From Planctomycetota bacterium (GTDB lineage: Bacteria > Planctomycetota > Planctomycetia > Pirellulales > Thermoguttaceae): a stretch of 43,082 nt of DNA. The position numbers and the translations under genes were made by a program. A model generated the notes under the pieces. It was not told the DNA's origin, ran no database searches, and was given only the letters and a program-made list of their open reading frames with translations. Positions 3,176 to 6,763 of this stretch are shown in pieces; the first letter of the stretch is position 1; the number at the start of each line of letters is the position of its first letter. The stretch spans positions 1-43,082 of the forward strand of contig JAKPGL010000138.1 of assembly GCA_029550925.1 (NCBI GenBank). Reading direction: 5' to 3'.

Positions 3176-4489
3176 CTAGTGGGCCAGCGAGGAAGATTCA
3201 GACCGGAGGCGGTTTTTCTGTCGATAGCGGCGGGTTTGAACAACCCAGAAAACTGCCGCCCCACACAGGATCAATAGACTGATATTTTGGCTGATGCTCA
3301 GACCCAGGGGCCAGACGCCCGGCTCATCGGTACGGATGATCTCCAACAGAAACCGGGTAATAGCATACACGCCCAACATGGCGGCGAAGAGTTGGCCCGG
3401 CCAGCGACAAAAGGGACTGTAAGCCAAAAGGAAAAGTCCAATCACCAAGGCGTTCACGGCGGCATATAGTTGGGCCGGGTGGACCGGAAGACTTCGATCG
3501 GCGATCGCTACCGGCGGAATAGCAACTCGTTTCCCAGAATCAGTTTCCAGGCGTAGCGGCGCTTGGCTGTAAAAGGCTCTGGCGATTTCCTGCTGAGCCT
3601 GGCCGCTTGTGTGGACCGGAACGCCATCCACTTTGACAATCCGATCGCCCGCAGTAAGCCCGGTCTGCGCGGCGGGCGAGTCGGGACGGACGGAAACGAT
3701 GATCGGCTCTTTTTTCGGGTGTTCGAGAAGGGAAAATCCGTACATTTGGCCGCGGTGGACCTGGCTTTCGTAAGGCAAACTGCCCTGGGGAAACCGCACC
3801 GCCCAGGCCGCTTCACACAGTCCGCCGTAGCAACAGCCGTTCAGGAAACACCCCACCCGGCCCAGGGCCAAACCGAACATGAGACTGGGCGCCGCCAGAT
3901 CGGCCAGCGTCAAAAAGGAAACGCCGTGTTGTTGAAGCTGCGGTCGGTATTTCCAAACGAACCCTATCAAGCCCGCCATCGCCCCTAGTAGGGCGCCATA
4001 GACCACCAGCCCTCCGCCAGCCACATTGAGCATCGCGCCCAACGTGGGCCAAAACTGCGGCGACTCCCGACTGGGCCGAAGAAAGTTCTCCCAATACTCC
4101 CACACATAAAAAAACCGGGCGCCCACAATCCCCGGCAGAATCATCCAAAAGGTAAGGCTGAAAATATATTCCGGGTCCAGGCCGATCTGCTTGGCCCGAC
4201 GCACCGCCAGCCATAACCCCACCACCACCCCCAACAACACCATCGTTCCATAACTGCGGATGGGCAGCCCCTCTGCGTCGCAAAGCGCCGGCAATAAGAA
4301 CCAAACAATCGCCGCCACAAGCAGCACCAACGGAATAAACGATCTACTTTCTGCATTCCACCCCTGCCGACGCACCATCCAGCCCAGCCAAATCAGACTC
4401 CCCAAAACCCACAGCCACAATAAAAGCCCAAAACCAAAAAGCGGTATCCCCGCGATCTCCTTCGGAATGTGGAACAAGGTTTGATGCAT
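3176..4489 (-). CDS. lgt: Prolipoprotein diacylglyceryl transferase with inserted PDZ domain
   Basis: Lgt moves diacylglycerol from phosphatidylglycerol to the lipobox cysteine of prelipoproteins at the cytoplasmic membrane. This protein has 437 residues, well above the usual 260-300. It has multiple membrane segments and the family motifs GARFFYV (about 123-129), GGGLVVYGALLG (158-169), GRVGCFLNGCCYG (210-222), HPAQLY (337-342) and RFLLEIIRTDEPG (379-391). The extra length is mainly residues 250-330: EHPKKEPIIVSVRPDSPAAQ, then TGLTAGDRIVKVDGVPV, a clear PDZ pattern, placed between the GRVGCF and HPAQLY motifs, that is in the loop before a late transmembrane helix. The C-terminus is Lys/Arg/Ser-rich. 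It sits between panC and an exported FAD enzyme on the same strand. The identity of Lgt is firm; the role of the PDZ part is unknown. Confidence 0.92.
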   Translation of the reverse strand: MHQTLFHIPKEIAGIPLFGFGLLLWLWVLGSLIWLGWMVRRQGWNAESRSFIPLVLLVAAIVWFLLPALCDAEGLPIRSYGTMVLLGVVVGLWLAVRRAKQIGLDPEYIFSLTFWMILPGIVGARFFYVWEYWENFLRPSRESPQFWPTLGAMLNVAGGGLVVYGALLGAMAGLIGFVWKYRPQLQQHGVSFLTLADLAAPSLMFGLALGRVGCFLNGCCYGGLCEAAWAVRFPQGSLPYESQVHRGQMYGFSLLEHPKKEPIIVSVRPDSPAAQTGLTAGDRIVKVDGVPVHTSGQAQQEIARAFYSQAPLRLETDSGKRVAIPPVAIADRSLPVHPAQLYAAVNALVIGLFLLAYSPFCRWPGQLFAAMLGVYAITRFLLEIIRTDEPGVWPLGLSISQNISLLILCGAAVFWVVQTRRYRQKNRLRSESSSLAH

Positions 4490-4603: not shown

Positions 4604-5470
4604 TCAAGGGGCAATCAGTTCATTATCGATCAATCGGACGCCGTCGATGCGGACGGCTAGTGCGACCAAGACCGGCCGATCTACCCGCCGCACCGGCGTC
4701 AACGTCTGGGGATCCACAAAAGCCACATAGTCGATCTGTGCACCTGGCACGGCGGCGATCATACTGCGCAATTGGGCCGCCAGCACCGCGGTATCTTTTT
4801 CGCCGCCAGCCGCCAACTGCTTGGCCCTGCAAAGGGCCTGCCACAAAATGGTAGCCTTCTGCCGAGACTCCGGTCCTAGATAGCGGTTTCGGGAGCTCAT
4901 GGCCAAGCCGTCCGGCTCCCGAACGGTCGGACAGACCCGAATCTCCACCGGCACATTCAGGTCGGCGACCATCCGCTGGATGACCAGGGCCTGTTGATAA
5001 TCTTTTTGGCCGAACCAGGCAATATCCGGTTGCACGATATTAAAGAGTTTCAGCACCACGGTGGCCACGCCTCGAAAATGGCCCGGCCGACATCGGCCTT
5101 CCAACGGGGCGGCGATTCCGCCGACCTCCACCCAACTGTCAAACCCAGCAGGATACATTTCCTGGTCCGAGGGGGCGAATACGGCGTCCACGCCATAGGC
5201 GGCCAGCAGTTGCAAGTCGGCCTCCAACGTGCGGGGATACCGGGTAAAATCTTCCTGCGGGCCGAATTGGGTCGGATTGACGAAAATAGAAACCACCGTG
5301 AATTCGGTCGCCTCTTTGGCGGCCCGGACCAAACTCAAATGCCCCTCGTGCAATGCGCCCATCGTGGGTACAAAACCGATCCGCCGACCTTCTCGACGGG
5401 CCGATTGGACCAACTGCCGAATGTCGGCCACTGTGGTAACCACCCGAGGTCTTTCCGCCGAATGCGTCAT
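4604..5470 (-). CDS. panC: Pantothenate synthetase
   Basis: PanC joins pantoate and beta-alanine with ATP to make pantothenate, the precursor of coenzyme A, in the cytosol. The 288-residue protein has the usual length and carries the nucleotide-binding PTMGALHEGH motif (residues 35-44), the conserved VSIFVNPTQFGPQEDF, GRCRPGHFRGVATVV, WFGQKDYQQ and AMSSRNRYL blocks. The start at ATG 5470 is chosen because GAGGAG lies 8 bases upstream; the in-frame GTG at 5476 would be too close to it. folK lies 120 bases upstream and lgt 114 bases downstream on the same strand. coaD, which acts later in the same pathway, is at 31550-32041. Confidence 0.97.
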   Translation of the reverse strand: MTHSAERPRVVTTVADIRQLVQSARREGRRIGFVPTMGALHEGHLSLVRAAKEATEFTVVSIFVNPTQFGPQEDFTRYPRTLEADLQLLAAYGVDAVFAPSDQEMYPAGFDSWVEVGGIAAPLEGRCRPGHFRGVATVVLKLFNIVQPDIAWFGQKDYQQALVIQRMVADLNVPVEIRVCPTVREPDGLAMSSRNRYLGPESRQKATILWQALCRAKQLAAGGEKDTAVLAAQLRSMIAAVPGAQIDYVAFVDPQTLTPVRRVDRPVLVALAVRIDGVRLIDNELIAP

Positions 5471-5590
5471 TCCCACCGCTCCTCAAACGCCAAGTACCGA
5501 TGTCTTCTTTTGGGTGATTCTAGGAAAATTAGGACTATTTCGGTCTTCTGGAAACCTTTCTTTTTCCGGCGTTTCAAAGCCATGCCGGGG

Positions 5591-6763
5591 TTAGTCCATG
5601 CCCTGCACGGCGATTTGGACTTCTGTGGCGGCCTGAGCCAGCTCGGCCAGACCAGCGTCGCCGTCCAAACGAAGTCTTATCCGCGGCCCTTTCCCTACGG
5701 AACAACACCGTTCCTTACCCAAGGGGAAAAGGAAAGGTTCATCGGTTTTTGGGGCCGGGACCGATGCGTCGGCGTCGAAATACACCAACAGTTTGGGAGA
5801 AACGATCCTCTGGCAGACCGTTTCCCAGCGTTTTCGGTCTTCTTTTGTTACGACGGGGCCGAGCCTCGCCTCCGCCCACGTCAGCCATTGGGGAAGCCAA
5901 AAATCGCTCACTACCCAGCCGTCCGAGGTCCATTGGGAGCGATCGCAAGGTATTTGCTCGGATAATCTCCATAACCATTTTAGAATGACGCCAACCGCCT
6001 GGGTAGGATCACCCAAAGCGGCGTCCCGTTCTAAGCCGTCCAGGCCGAGCGCGTCCGAAGGGCGACGGCTCAACCGGGGAATCGAAGAAGTCCTCTCCTG
6101 AGTTTCCCCGCCGCAAGCGAAGTCATCCCCCCATCGCTCGGCAAAGGCGGCTTCCTCACCATCTGGCCGAAACACTCCTAATATCGCCTTCACCAGGGGC
6201 GGTGCGCATAGAAGTTCCGCCCCGATCCGCTCGGCAATCAGGCGGGCCAGCCGAGTGTTCACCCCCGGCCAAGGGCTGGCCACCGCCGCATAGGGAAATG
6301 CGTCTCGAAGATGATGGAAAAGCTCCTGAACCGTCCACCCGATCTCCGGATGCACCATCCACCCGGCAACCTGTGCGGCCGGCTCCAAGACAAACCGCCG
6401 CCACGTCATGGCCGGGTGCGGAATCCGAAGCCGTTCCGTCTCGATCACCCACTCGTCATAAAGAAGGATGTCTAAATCCAAGGTCCGGGGCCCCCATCGT
6501 TCCTGTCGAACCCGGCCCAACTGGTTCTCGATTTCTTGCAACCGATCCAGAAGGGCTTCGGGAGCAAGCAAGGTTTGGAGCAGGGCAACGCCGTTGAGAA
6601 AATCCGCCTGTCCCGCTGGTCCGCCCACCGCCCGAGTGGCCAACCAAGCACTCACCCCTTCGAGCCGGATCCCAGGCGTACCGCAGAGCAACTCCACGCC
6701 CCGGTGGAGATTTTCCTCCCGGCAGCCTACATTGGAACCTAGACCGATCAATACATGGGCCAT
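5591..6763 (-). CDS. folK: FolK (HPPK) fused to a degenerate deoxynucleoside-kinase-like domain
   Basis: Residues 1-150 are a standard 6-hydroxymethyl-dihydropterin pyrophosphokinase, which transfers pyrophosphate from ATP in folate synthesis. They carry GLGSNVG, DFLNGVALL and the signature RWGPRTLDLDILLYD (89-103). FolK is normally about 160 residues, but this protein has 390. The remaining 230 residues resemble the Pfam dNK family: a P-loop-like segment at 159-182 (ASPWPGVNTRLARLIAERIG, where an active enzyme would have GxxGxGKT), VVSDFWLPQWLTWAEARL (284-301), similar to the 'SDY...F/A' segment of deoxynucleoside kinases, and KLLVYFDAD (324-332), like their 'DLVIYL.A' strand. The Walker lysine is missing, so the second domain is probably catalytically inactive. 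A Ser/Arg-rich stretch (about 218-250) interrupts it. The FolK assignment is firm; the kinase-like origin of the C-terminus is inference from motif similarity. Confidence 0.9.
   Translation of the reverse strand: MAHVLIGLGSNVGCREENLHRGVELLCGTPGIRLEGVSAWLATRAVGGPAGQADFLNGVALLQTLLAPEALLDRLQEIENQLGRVRQERWGPRTLDLDILLYDEWVIETERLRIPHPAMTWRRFVLEPAAQVAGWMVHPEIGWTVQELFHHLRDAFPYAAVASPWPGVNTRLARLIAERIGAELLCAPPLVKAILGVFRPDGEEAAFAERWGDDFACGGETQERTSSIPRLSRRPSDALGLDGLERDAALGDPTQAVGVILKWLWRLSEQIPCDRSQWTSDGWVVSDFWLPQWLTWAEARLGPVVTKEDRKRWETVCQRIVSPKLLVYFDADASVPAPKTDEPFLFPLGKERCCSVGKGPRIRLRLDGDAGLAELAQAATEVQIAVQGMD

Follow-up and report, generated by a model that had tools for sequence, protein, structure and literature searches.

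The first and committed step of bacterial lipoprotein maturation is carried out by the prolipoprotein diacylglyceryl transferase Lgt, an enzyme also discussed as a drug target. How Lgt picks and positions its prolipoprotein substrates is still unsettled, and recent work, in its available text, implicates the head domain of the enzyme. A planctomycete gene in which a PDZ domain sits within an Lgt brings this question into focus: is the domain real and inherited, is its host a working enzyme, and what might a PDZ domain do there? The gene occupies positions 3176..4489 on the minus strand of the window, by which we mean the whole stretch of 43,082 nucleotides analysed here. It encodes a PDZ-insert Lgt of 437 amino acids, as assigned from its open reading frame, Pfam, AlphaFold2, and VIA-align; the frame opens with an ATG, and the plus strand across the same interval is interrupted by several stops. 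That this protein combines Lgt with a PDZ domain is close to certain.

Membership in the Lgt family is set by fold, Pfam match, and residues. The Pfam LGT model spans residues 70–416 (E 7.3e-49; 166.7 bits against a gathering score of 24.9), and a phmmer search of the PDB pairs residues 75–234 and 334–424 with E. coli Lgt (5azb) and residues 257–313 with PDZ domains of an RseP homologue. The AlphaFold2 model, built from a 57-row alignment of relatives (mean pLDDT 93.2, pTM 0.87), matches the E. coli Lgt fold by both VIA-align (5azb; Z 20.0 over 260 residues at 3.6 Å) and Foldseek (E 6.4e-10). The NCBIfam Lgt models all score below their curated cut-offs, which are annotation thresholds and no biological trait (TIGR00544, 101.4 versus 118.9 bits; NF000778, 144.8 versus 334), and both of these alignments are split into two stretches, as expected from an insert. 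Within the fold, the Lgt signature motif GRVGCFLNGCCYG occupies residues 210–222 (3824..3862, minus strand), where R211, C214, C219, and G222 stand at the positions of E. coli R143, N146, E151, and G154. HPAQLY, placed by alignment and the model at the start of TM5, spans residues 337–342 (3464..3481, minus strand), and R379, E383, and R386 (3332..3355, minus strand) correspond by residue alignment to E. coli R239, E243, and R246.

It is between the signature motif and HPAQLY that a sequence-only reading of this DNA had proposed a PDZ domain, a proposal now borne out by three Pfam models, structure prediction, and fold comparison. The domain covers residues ~247–333 (3491..3751, minus strand) in the TM4–TM5 interval that forms the periplasmic head. 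PDZ_6 scores 43 bits over residues 263–313, above its cut-off of 27 (E 3.8e-11), and PDZ_2 (38.5 versus 27 bits) and PDZ (31.3 versus 23.2 bits) pass as well. The structure prediction that had been suggested as a check returned a PDZ fold, with ten-residue mean pLDDT values of 94–98 across residues 241–340 and matches of residues 235–333 to the solved PDZ domains of CtpB, HtrA, DegQ, and the RseP homologue at Z ~10 (VIA-align). The equivalent of the carboxylate-binding loop, positioned by alignment, is residues 251–254 (G-F-S-L; 3728..3739, minus strand), which we take to be the ligand loop by homology to HtrA-type PDZ domains. G251, F252, L254, and I302, at positions that presumably line the groove, are all present, and the groove helix comprises the 13 residues 295–307 in the model. 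A reading of the domain as chance or artefact is ruled out by the three models above cut-off, the high-confidence fold, and the conservation. Nor is the insert an assembly artefact: among 57 chosen insert-bearing relatives, PDZ_6 is matched in 45 and PDZ in 45 at E ≤ 0.01, and the complete-chromosome record of Lacipirellula limnantheis (L182) carries a PDZ domain above cut-off.

According to the accessible part of the literature, the signature motif ends TM4 of E. coli Lgt, and the stretch from there to TM5 forms the head, which faces the periplasm next to a cavity in the membrane that has front and side clefts. By homology, the PDZ domain would thus be located in the periplasmic head beside the cavity, which agrees with the placement proposed earlier from topology. 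The insert is bounded by the consensus flanks SPPYxxQxxxG and SLPVHPxQLY, both of which are retained in PDZ-less relatives with a short loop between them.

The same reading had called the remainder of the protein an otherwise standard Lgt. This description stands for the fold and the catalytic arginines, but needs correcting in two respects, namely three substitutions (Y164, C214, and C219 at E. coli H103, N146, and E151) and a second insertion that it had missed. The latter is a membrane hairpin at residues ~12–72 (helices 22–42 and 46–69; 4274..4456, minus strand), identified from AlphaFold2 helices and alignment and placed after the first beta strand and before TM1. It occurs in rows of the window's order, PDZ-less rows included, and is absent by alignment from L028, L063, and L078. 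In the 21-row clade that holds a Gemmataceae metagenome-assembled genome (MAG), 13 rows are too short for the hairpin, L106, L110, and L117 carry it, and the remaining rows are not callable as their open frames continue upstream. Because the hairpin occurs without the PDZ domain, and a PDZ clade is largely too short for the hairpin, the two seem to be independent insertions.

Residues known from E. coli bear on whether the enzyme still works as an Lgt. Y26, R143, G154, and R239, essential in E. coli, are retained as Y80, R211, G222, and R379, and H103 and N146, likewise essential there, are replaced by Y164 and C214. Across 57 of 74 reference Lgts, selected for bearing an insert and aligned with one another (alignment A1), the equivalents of R143, R239, R246, D129, G98, G99, G104, G142, and G145 are identical in every row. 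The Y26 equivalent is Tyr in 48 rows and Phe in 9, the Y235 equivalent Tyr in 42, His in 14, and Phe in 1, and the E243 equivalent is Glu in 56 of 57; the H103 equivalent is Tyr in 51 and Phe in 6, and both the N146 and E151 equivalents are Cys in all 57. The replacement of H103, N146, and E151, together with the subthreshold NCBIfam scores, could be taken to indicate a paralogue that is no longer an Lgt and has changed its donor, acceptor, or reaction. We regard this as very improbable: the arginines are invariant, the protein is the sole Lgt match in many genomes, and the window's own genome has one LspA match and one Lnt match. Moreover, H103-to-Tyr and N146-to-Cys replacements are reported, in the consulted portion of the literature, for the Lgts of other bacteria, where the presumably low activity of one mycobacterial homologue is also linked to N146C (with Y26H). 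In the planctomycete Planctopirus limnophila, Lgt and Lnt are counted as essential genes, in slightly ambiguous wording in the available text (PMC10632474). Taken together, residue conservation suggests that the window protein most likely functions as a housekeeping Lgt.

A second, canonical Lgt as the true worker is ruled out as a general answer by the 72 genomes of the order with a single Lgt match, of which 47 carry the long form, as judged by extra length, which alone does not prove a PDZ domain; 24 carry the short form, and one (G685) is not listed. The window's own genome does hold a second, compact Lgt-like frame without a PDZ domain (L002:1597-2319; C161:41078-41815), which has an in-frame TAG ahead of the TM6 arginine motif. 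Compact matches free of stops occur in other genomes of the order (profile positions ~13–239).

How widespread is this architecture? In the class, 386 of 397 genomes match the protein, the best matches being full-length and colinear, and all 128 sampled genomes of the order (≥93% complete) have an LGT match. The domain search across Planctomycetota that had been suggested is answered, for the window's order, by the 112 genomes scorable for insert length: in 86 the protein exceeds the Pfam profile by 86–152 residues, in 26 by 18–36, and in none by an intermediate length. Among the 26 without the insert, 23 belong to one family (f99), and the others are G659, G706, and G679. The 16 unscored genomes comprise 15 with a first-half row alone and G685 with no row; three of the 16 that were fetched (G167, G322, and G451) carry inserts of 110–143 residues. 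PDZ models exceed their cut-offs in an uncultured Thermoguttaceae bacterium (L123), in L. limnantheis, and in L101, taken as the Gemmataceae-titled MAG contig (L172). In Rhodopirellula europaea and R. rubra PDZ_6 is weak and below cut-offs. A Pfam PDZ match is absent from two Botrimarina species, from the chromosomes of L163 and L167, and from a Schlesneria MAG (L200) with 9 residues at the insert site. A unique or recent fusion is ruled out, as the architecture is common in the order and extends to the Gemmataceae MAG as well as to other families of the class. Elsewhere in the phylum, a profile built from the PDZ-Lgt family itself, which may miss distant PDZ domains, found no match in 20 longer-span (858–1014 bases) and 30 top-scoring other Lgts from 294 genomes. 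Among the 80 of 570 relatives listed in a contig scan, all titles are planctomycetes except L137 ("bacterium").

The head loop varies in other ways as well. Within genus g249, G659 and G706 have no PDZ-length insert, whereas G509, G607, G709, and G712 do. A Thermoguttaceae MAG from goat duodenum (L202:6001-7521) has a head insert of 175 residues with no Pfam PDZ match, and long cysteine-containing loops lie within the PDZ region of L097, L135, L095, L155, L156, and L177, whose inserts span 130–149 residues; L095 and L097 belong to the window's own family. In a separate planctomycete Lgt clade (L194, L195, L196, L201, L063, and L078; three with Phycisphaerae or Phycisphaerales in their titles), the head holds another kind of insert, 62–116 residues long, that is not matched by the PDZ profile, so the head loop accepts unrelated inserts.

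The history of the domain can be traced with the same profile, derived from 29 clear inserts and run on 148 distinct Lgts, 145 of which were classed. These divide into 70 with a PDZ domain (≥40 bits), 47 eroded (10–40 bits), 20 without the insert, 6 with another insert, and 2 unclear, with class boundaries of our own choosing by which single rows may be misfiled. For example, L097, classed as eroded, passes the PDZ_6 cut-off (29.5 versus 27), and L095, classed as intact, falls below the cut-offs. No PDZ model exceeds its cut-off in L091, L087, or L170. The insert columns were left out of a quick LG+G4 tree of the 145 rows, in which 55 of the 142 inner branches are open. On this tree a single starred clade, nested in the PDZ-bearing order, gathers 15 insert-less rows, including four from f99. 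Two further insert-less rows, L109 and L165, adjoin PDZ-bearing rows; L109 retains its LGT match without a PDZ domain. If the root is right, the tree would imply at least three losses of the domain. The eroded case of R. europaea was modelled from a 20-row alignment (pLDDT 85, pTM 0.80); strand order is unchanged, and the helix at the groove position has 6 residues in this less confident model versus 13 in that of the window. No PDZ chain is among the best 50 VIA matches listed for it, and the top PDZ-bearing Foldseek entry is DegS (E 0.05), so these predictions neither prove nor exclude a PDZ fold there. Collectively, profile scores and tree point to a domain that is inherited, worn down in some relatives, Rhodopirellula for instance, and cleanly lost in others.

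Gene order is consistent with this history. Directly upstream of lgt lies panC, encoding pantoate–beta-alanine ligase (4604..5476, minus strand; TIGR00018, 330.5 versus 212.75 bits), preceded by a gene for a folK domain protein (5591..6763, minus strand; TIGR01498, 127.6 versus 54.1 bits). Among the 80 related loci listed, some of which end at contig ends, a panC homologue is found at 57 and a folK homologue at 37, with and without the insert. Since these neighbors accompany lgt whether the insert is present or absent, the most likely reading of the insert-less Lgts is as orthologues from which the PDZ domain was lost in place. Spread by virus or plasmid was also considered and nothing was found for it: viral contigs gave 11 pattern matches and no relatives, plasmids only two records, both annotated Lgt, with 37% of the query covered, and the top match among viral structures is a giant virus (Hyperionvirus) protein annotated Lgt with a predicted Lgt-like fold (E 3e-3).

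Selection was assessed in the 34 sequence pairs listed, and dN/dS is below 1 wherever computable. In the 16 overlapping pairs whose cores are most alike (identity 0.87–0.99), the median is 0.14 for the insert (0–0.32) versus 0.055 for the core (0.01–0.10), and the insert value exceeds that of the core in 13; in the other 18 pairs, many with dS near saturation, the insert value is 0.20–0.56 in 15 and not computable in 3. These ratios indicate that the insert is under purifying selection, looser than that on the enzyme core. Within the 51 clearest inserts, picked by score with the 29-member same-family profile so that conservation is partly by construction, G247, G251, and G277 are identical in all 51, and a hydrophobic residue occupies positions 252 and 254 in 51 and position 302 in 50. 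Position 246, in the loop preceding G251, is Arg in just 19 of the 51. Eroded rows mostly keep the insert length and retain G251 in 46 of 47, and a large hydrophobic residue at groove-helix position 302, where the alignment is less sure, is found in 22 of 47 eroded versus 67 of 70 intact rows.

We propose that a housekeeping Lgt gained a PDZ domain in its periplasmic head, where, next to the cavity, the domain would be a module for docking or positioning. The peptide bound, extended or C-terminal, may belong to the incoming prolipoprotein or to an envelope partner, and such binding could tune the rate of lipidation or the choice of its substrates. The domain looks accessory to catalysis, given its looser constraint relative to the core, its erosion in relatives, and its repeated loss, and is presumably dispensable for the chemistry itself. 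Where the groove helix is degraded, as in Rhodopirellula and its kin, probably only a role in shape or packing is left. The docking interpretation draws on the influence of the Lgt head on substrate compatibility: in the text available to us, E. coli Lgt function is variously restored, weakened, or abolished when heads are swapped between species, and a survey of head-domain diversity points to the head as a variable, specificity-setting part (mBio 2026, PMC13251419, as consulted in part). Against it stands the absence of the insert from a whole family and, within one genus, from certain species, which means that cells manage without it. The large hydrophobic residue at position 302, missing from 25 of the 47 eroded inserts, and the Arg at position 246, present in 19 of 51 clear ones, also count against docking. 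LspA and Lnt have cytoplasmic C-termini, and these obvious pathway partners would thus offer no free periplasmic C-terminus for a PDZ domain to bind; purifying selection on the insert can also reflect folding alone. On balance we assign a docking function a tentative probability of about 0.4. A stronger version strikes us as improbable: the domain would recognize an envelope signal peptide, or a tag on prolipoproteins, C-terminal or internal, and switch Lgt from one class of substrates to another or bias it among them. If true, it would mean selective or regulated lipidation, a specificity layer, without a counterpart known to us, in the committed step of lipoprotein biogenesis.

Docking has two close rivals. 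The domain could be a decoration tolerated in a permissive loop, persisting by virtue of folding well and with little or no specific function. The insert's higher dN/dS in most close pairs and its 0.20–0.56 range in distant ones, the losses and gradient of erosion, and the other head inserts of the phylum that the PDZ profile does not match all suit such a view; we nonetheless consider it rather unlikely, because dN/dS stays below 1 in each computable pair and the domain, often located in the sole Lgt found, remains recognizable throughout the order, in the Gemmataceae MAG, and in other families of the class. A steric gate is likewise unlikely. By this account, the PDZ domain would sit above the periplasmic exit and filter substrates by size or folding without a specific peptide, in the manner of the RseP PDZ pair, which is described, in the part of the source consulted, as a size-exclusion filter above an active site embedded in the membrane (PMC7728848). 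Apart from this precedent, the gate is favored by the RseP homologue as top PDB sequence match and by eroded copies that mostly retain their length despite lost groove features, but it has to contend with the clean losses and with the groove features kept by the intact set. Lgt, moreover, normally takes prolipoproteins with large folded parts, which leaves a size filter without evident benefit.

The PDZ-Lgt is a real, inherited, and apparently uncharacterized variant of a known enzyme. The earlier question of whether it is a well-described general feature has a divided answer: within one planctomycete lineage the feature is general, but no description of it was found. Literature searches on Lgt with PDZ, planctomycetes, or PDZ architecture yielded no natural PDZ-Lgt, the sole pairing being an engineered anchor. 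The words "PDZ" and "planctomycet" are absent from the main text of the head-domain survey in the form consulted (PMC13251419), and in the consulted text of a survey of microbial PDZ proteins (PMC6411480), prolipoprotein, lipoprotein, LGT, transferase, and diacylglyceryl have 0 occurrences. Domain databases very likely already list the combination, since LGT and PDZ models both score above cut-off. What the lineage offers is a set of matched natural variants, in which a PDZ domain in the head, often of the sole Lgt, is eroded in some branches and cleanly lost in others, even within one genus, and which provide a way to probe the role of the head and the substrate choice of Lgt.

Comparison with known systems places this variant among several partial parallels. 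The engineered PDZ-Lgt fusion in E. coli (PMC9893748), as far as its available text describes it, likewise has a PDZ domain on the periplasmic side of Lgt; that fusion is artificial, however, with PDZ at the N-terminus and Lgt serving as a membrane anchor. E. coli Lgt itself (5azb/5azc; PMC4728403, consulted in part) has in common with the window protein the fold, signature motif, catalytic arginines, and TM4–TM5 periplasmic head. It differs in having neither PDZ domain nor extra membrane hairpin, and in bearing His, Asn, and Glu where the window protein has Tyr, Cys, and Cys. The PDZ domains of HtrA, DegQ, DegP, and the Ctp-type periplasmic proteases share their fold with window residues 235–333 (Z ~10). 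In these enzymes the PDZ domain is fused to a soluble protease and recognizes protein C-termini or serves assembly, a fusion that the window Lgt does not share. The closest parallel by PDB sequence match is RseP and the Aquifex aeolicus site-2 protease (E 2.2e-7 for the PDZ part): RseP-type enzymes, in the portion of the source available, are likewise membrane enzymes in which a loop on the periplasmic side carries PDZ (PMC7728848), but RseP is a protease with two PDZ domains, whereas the Lgt of the window is a lipid transferase with one.
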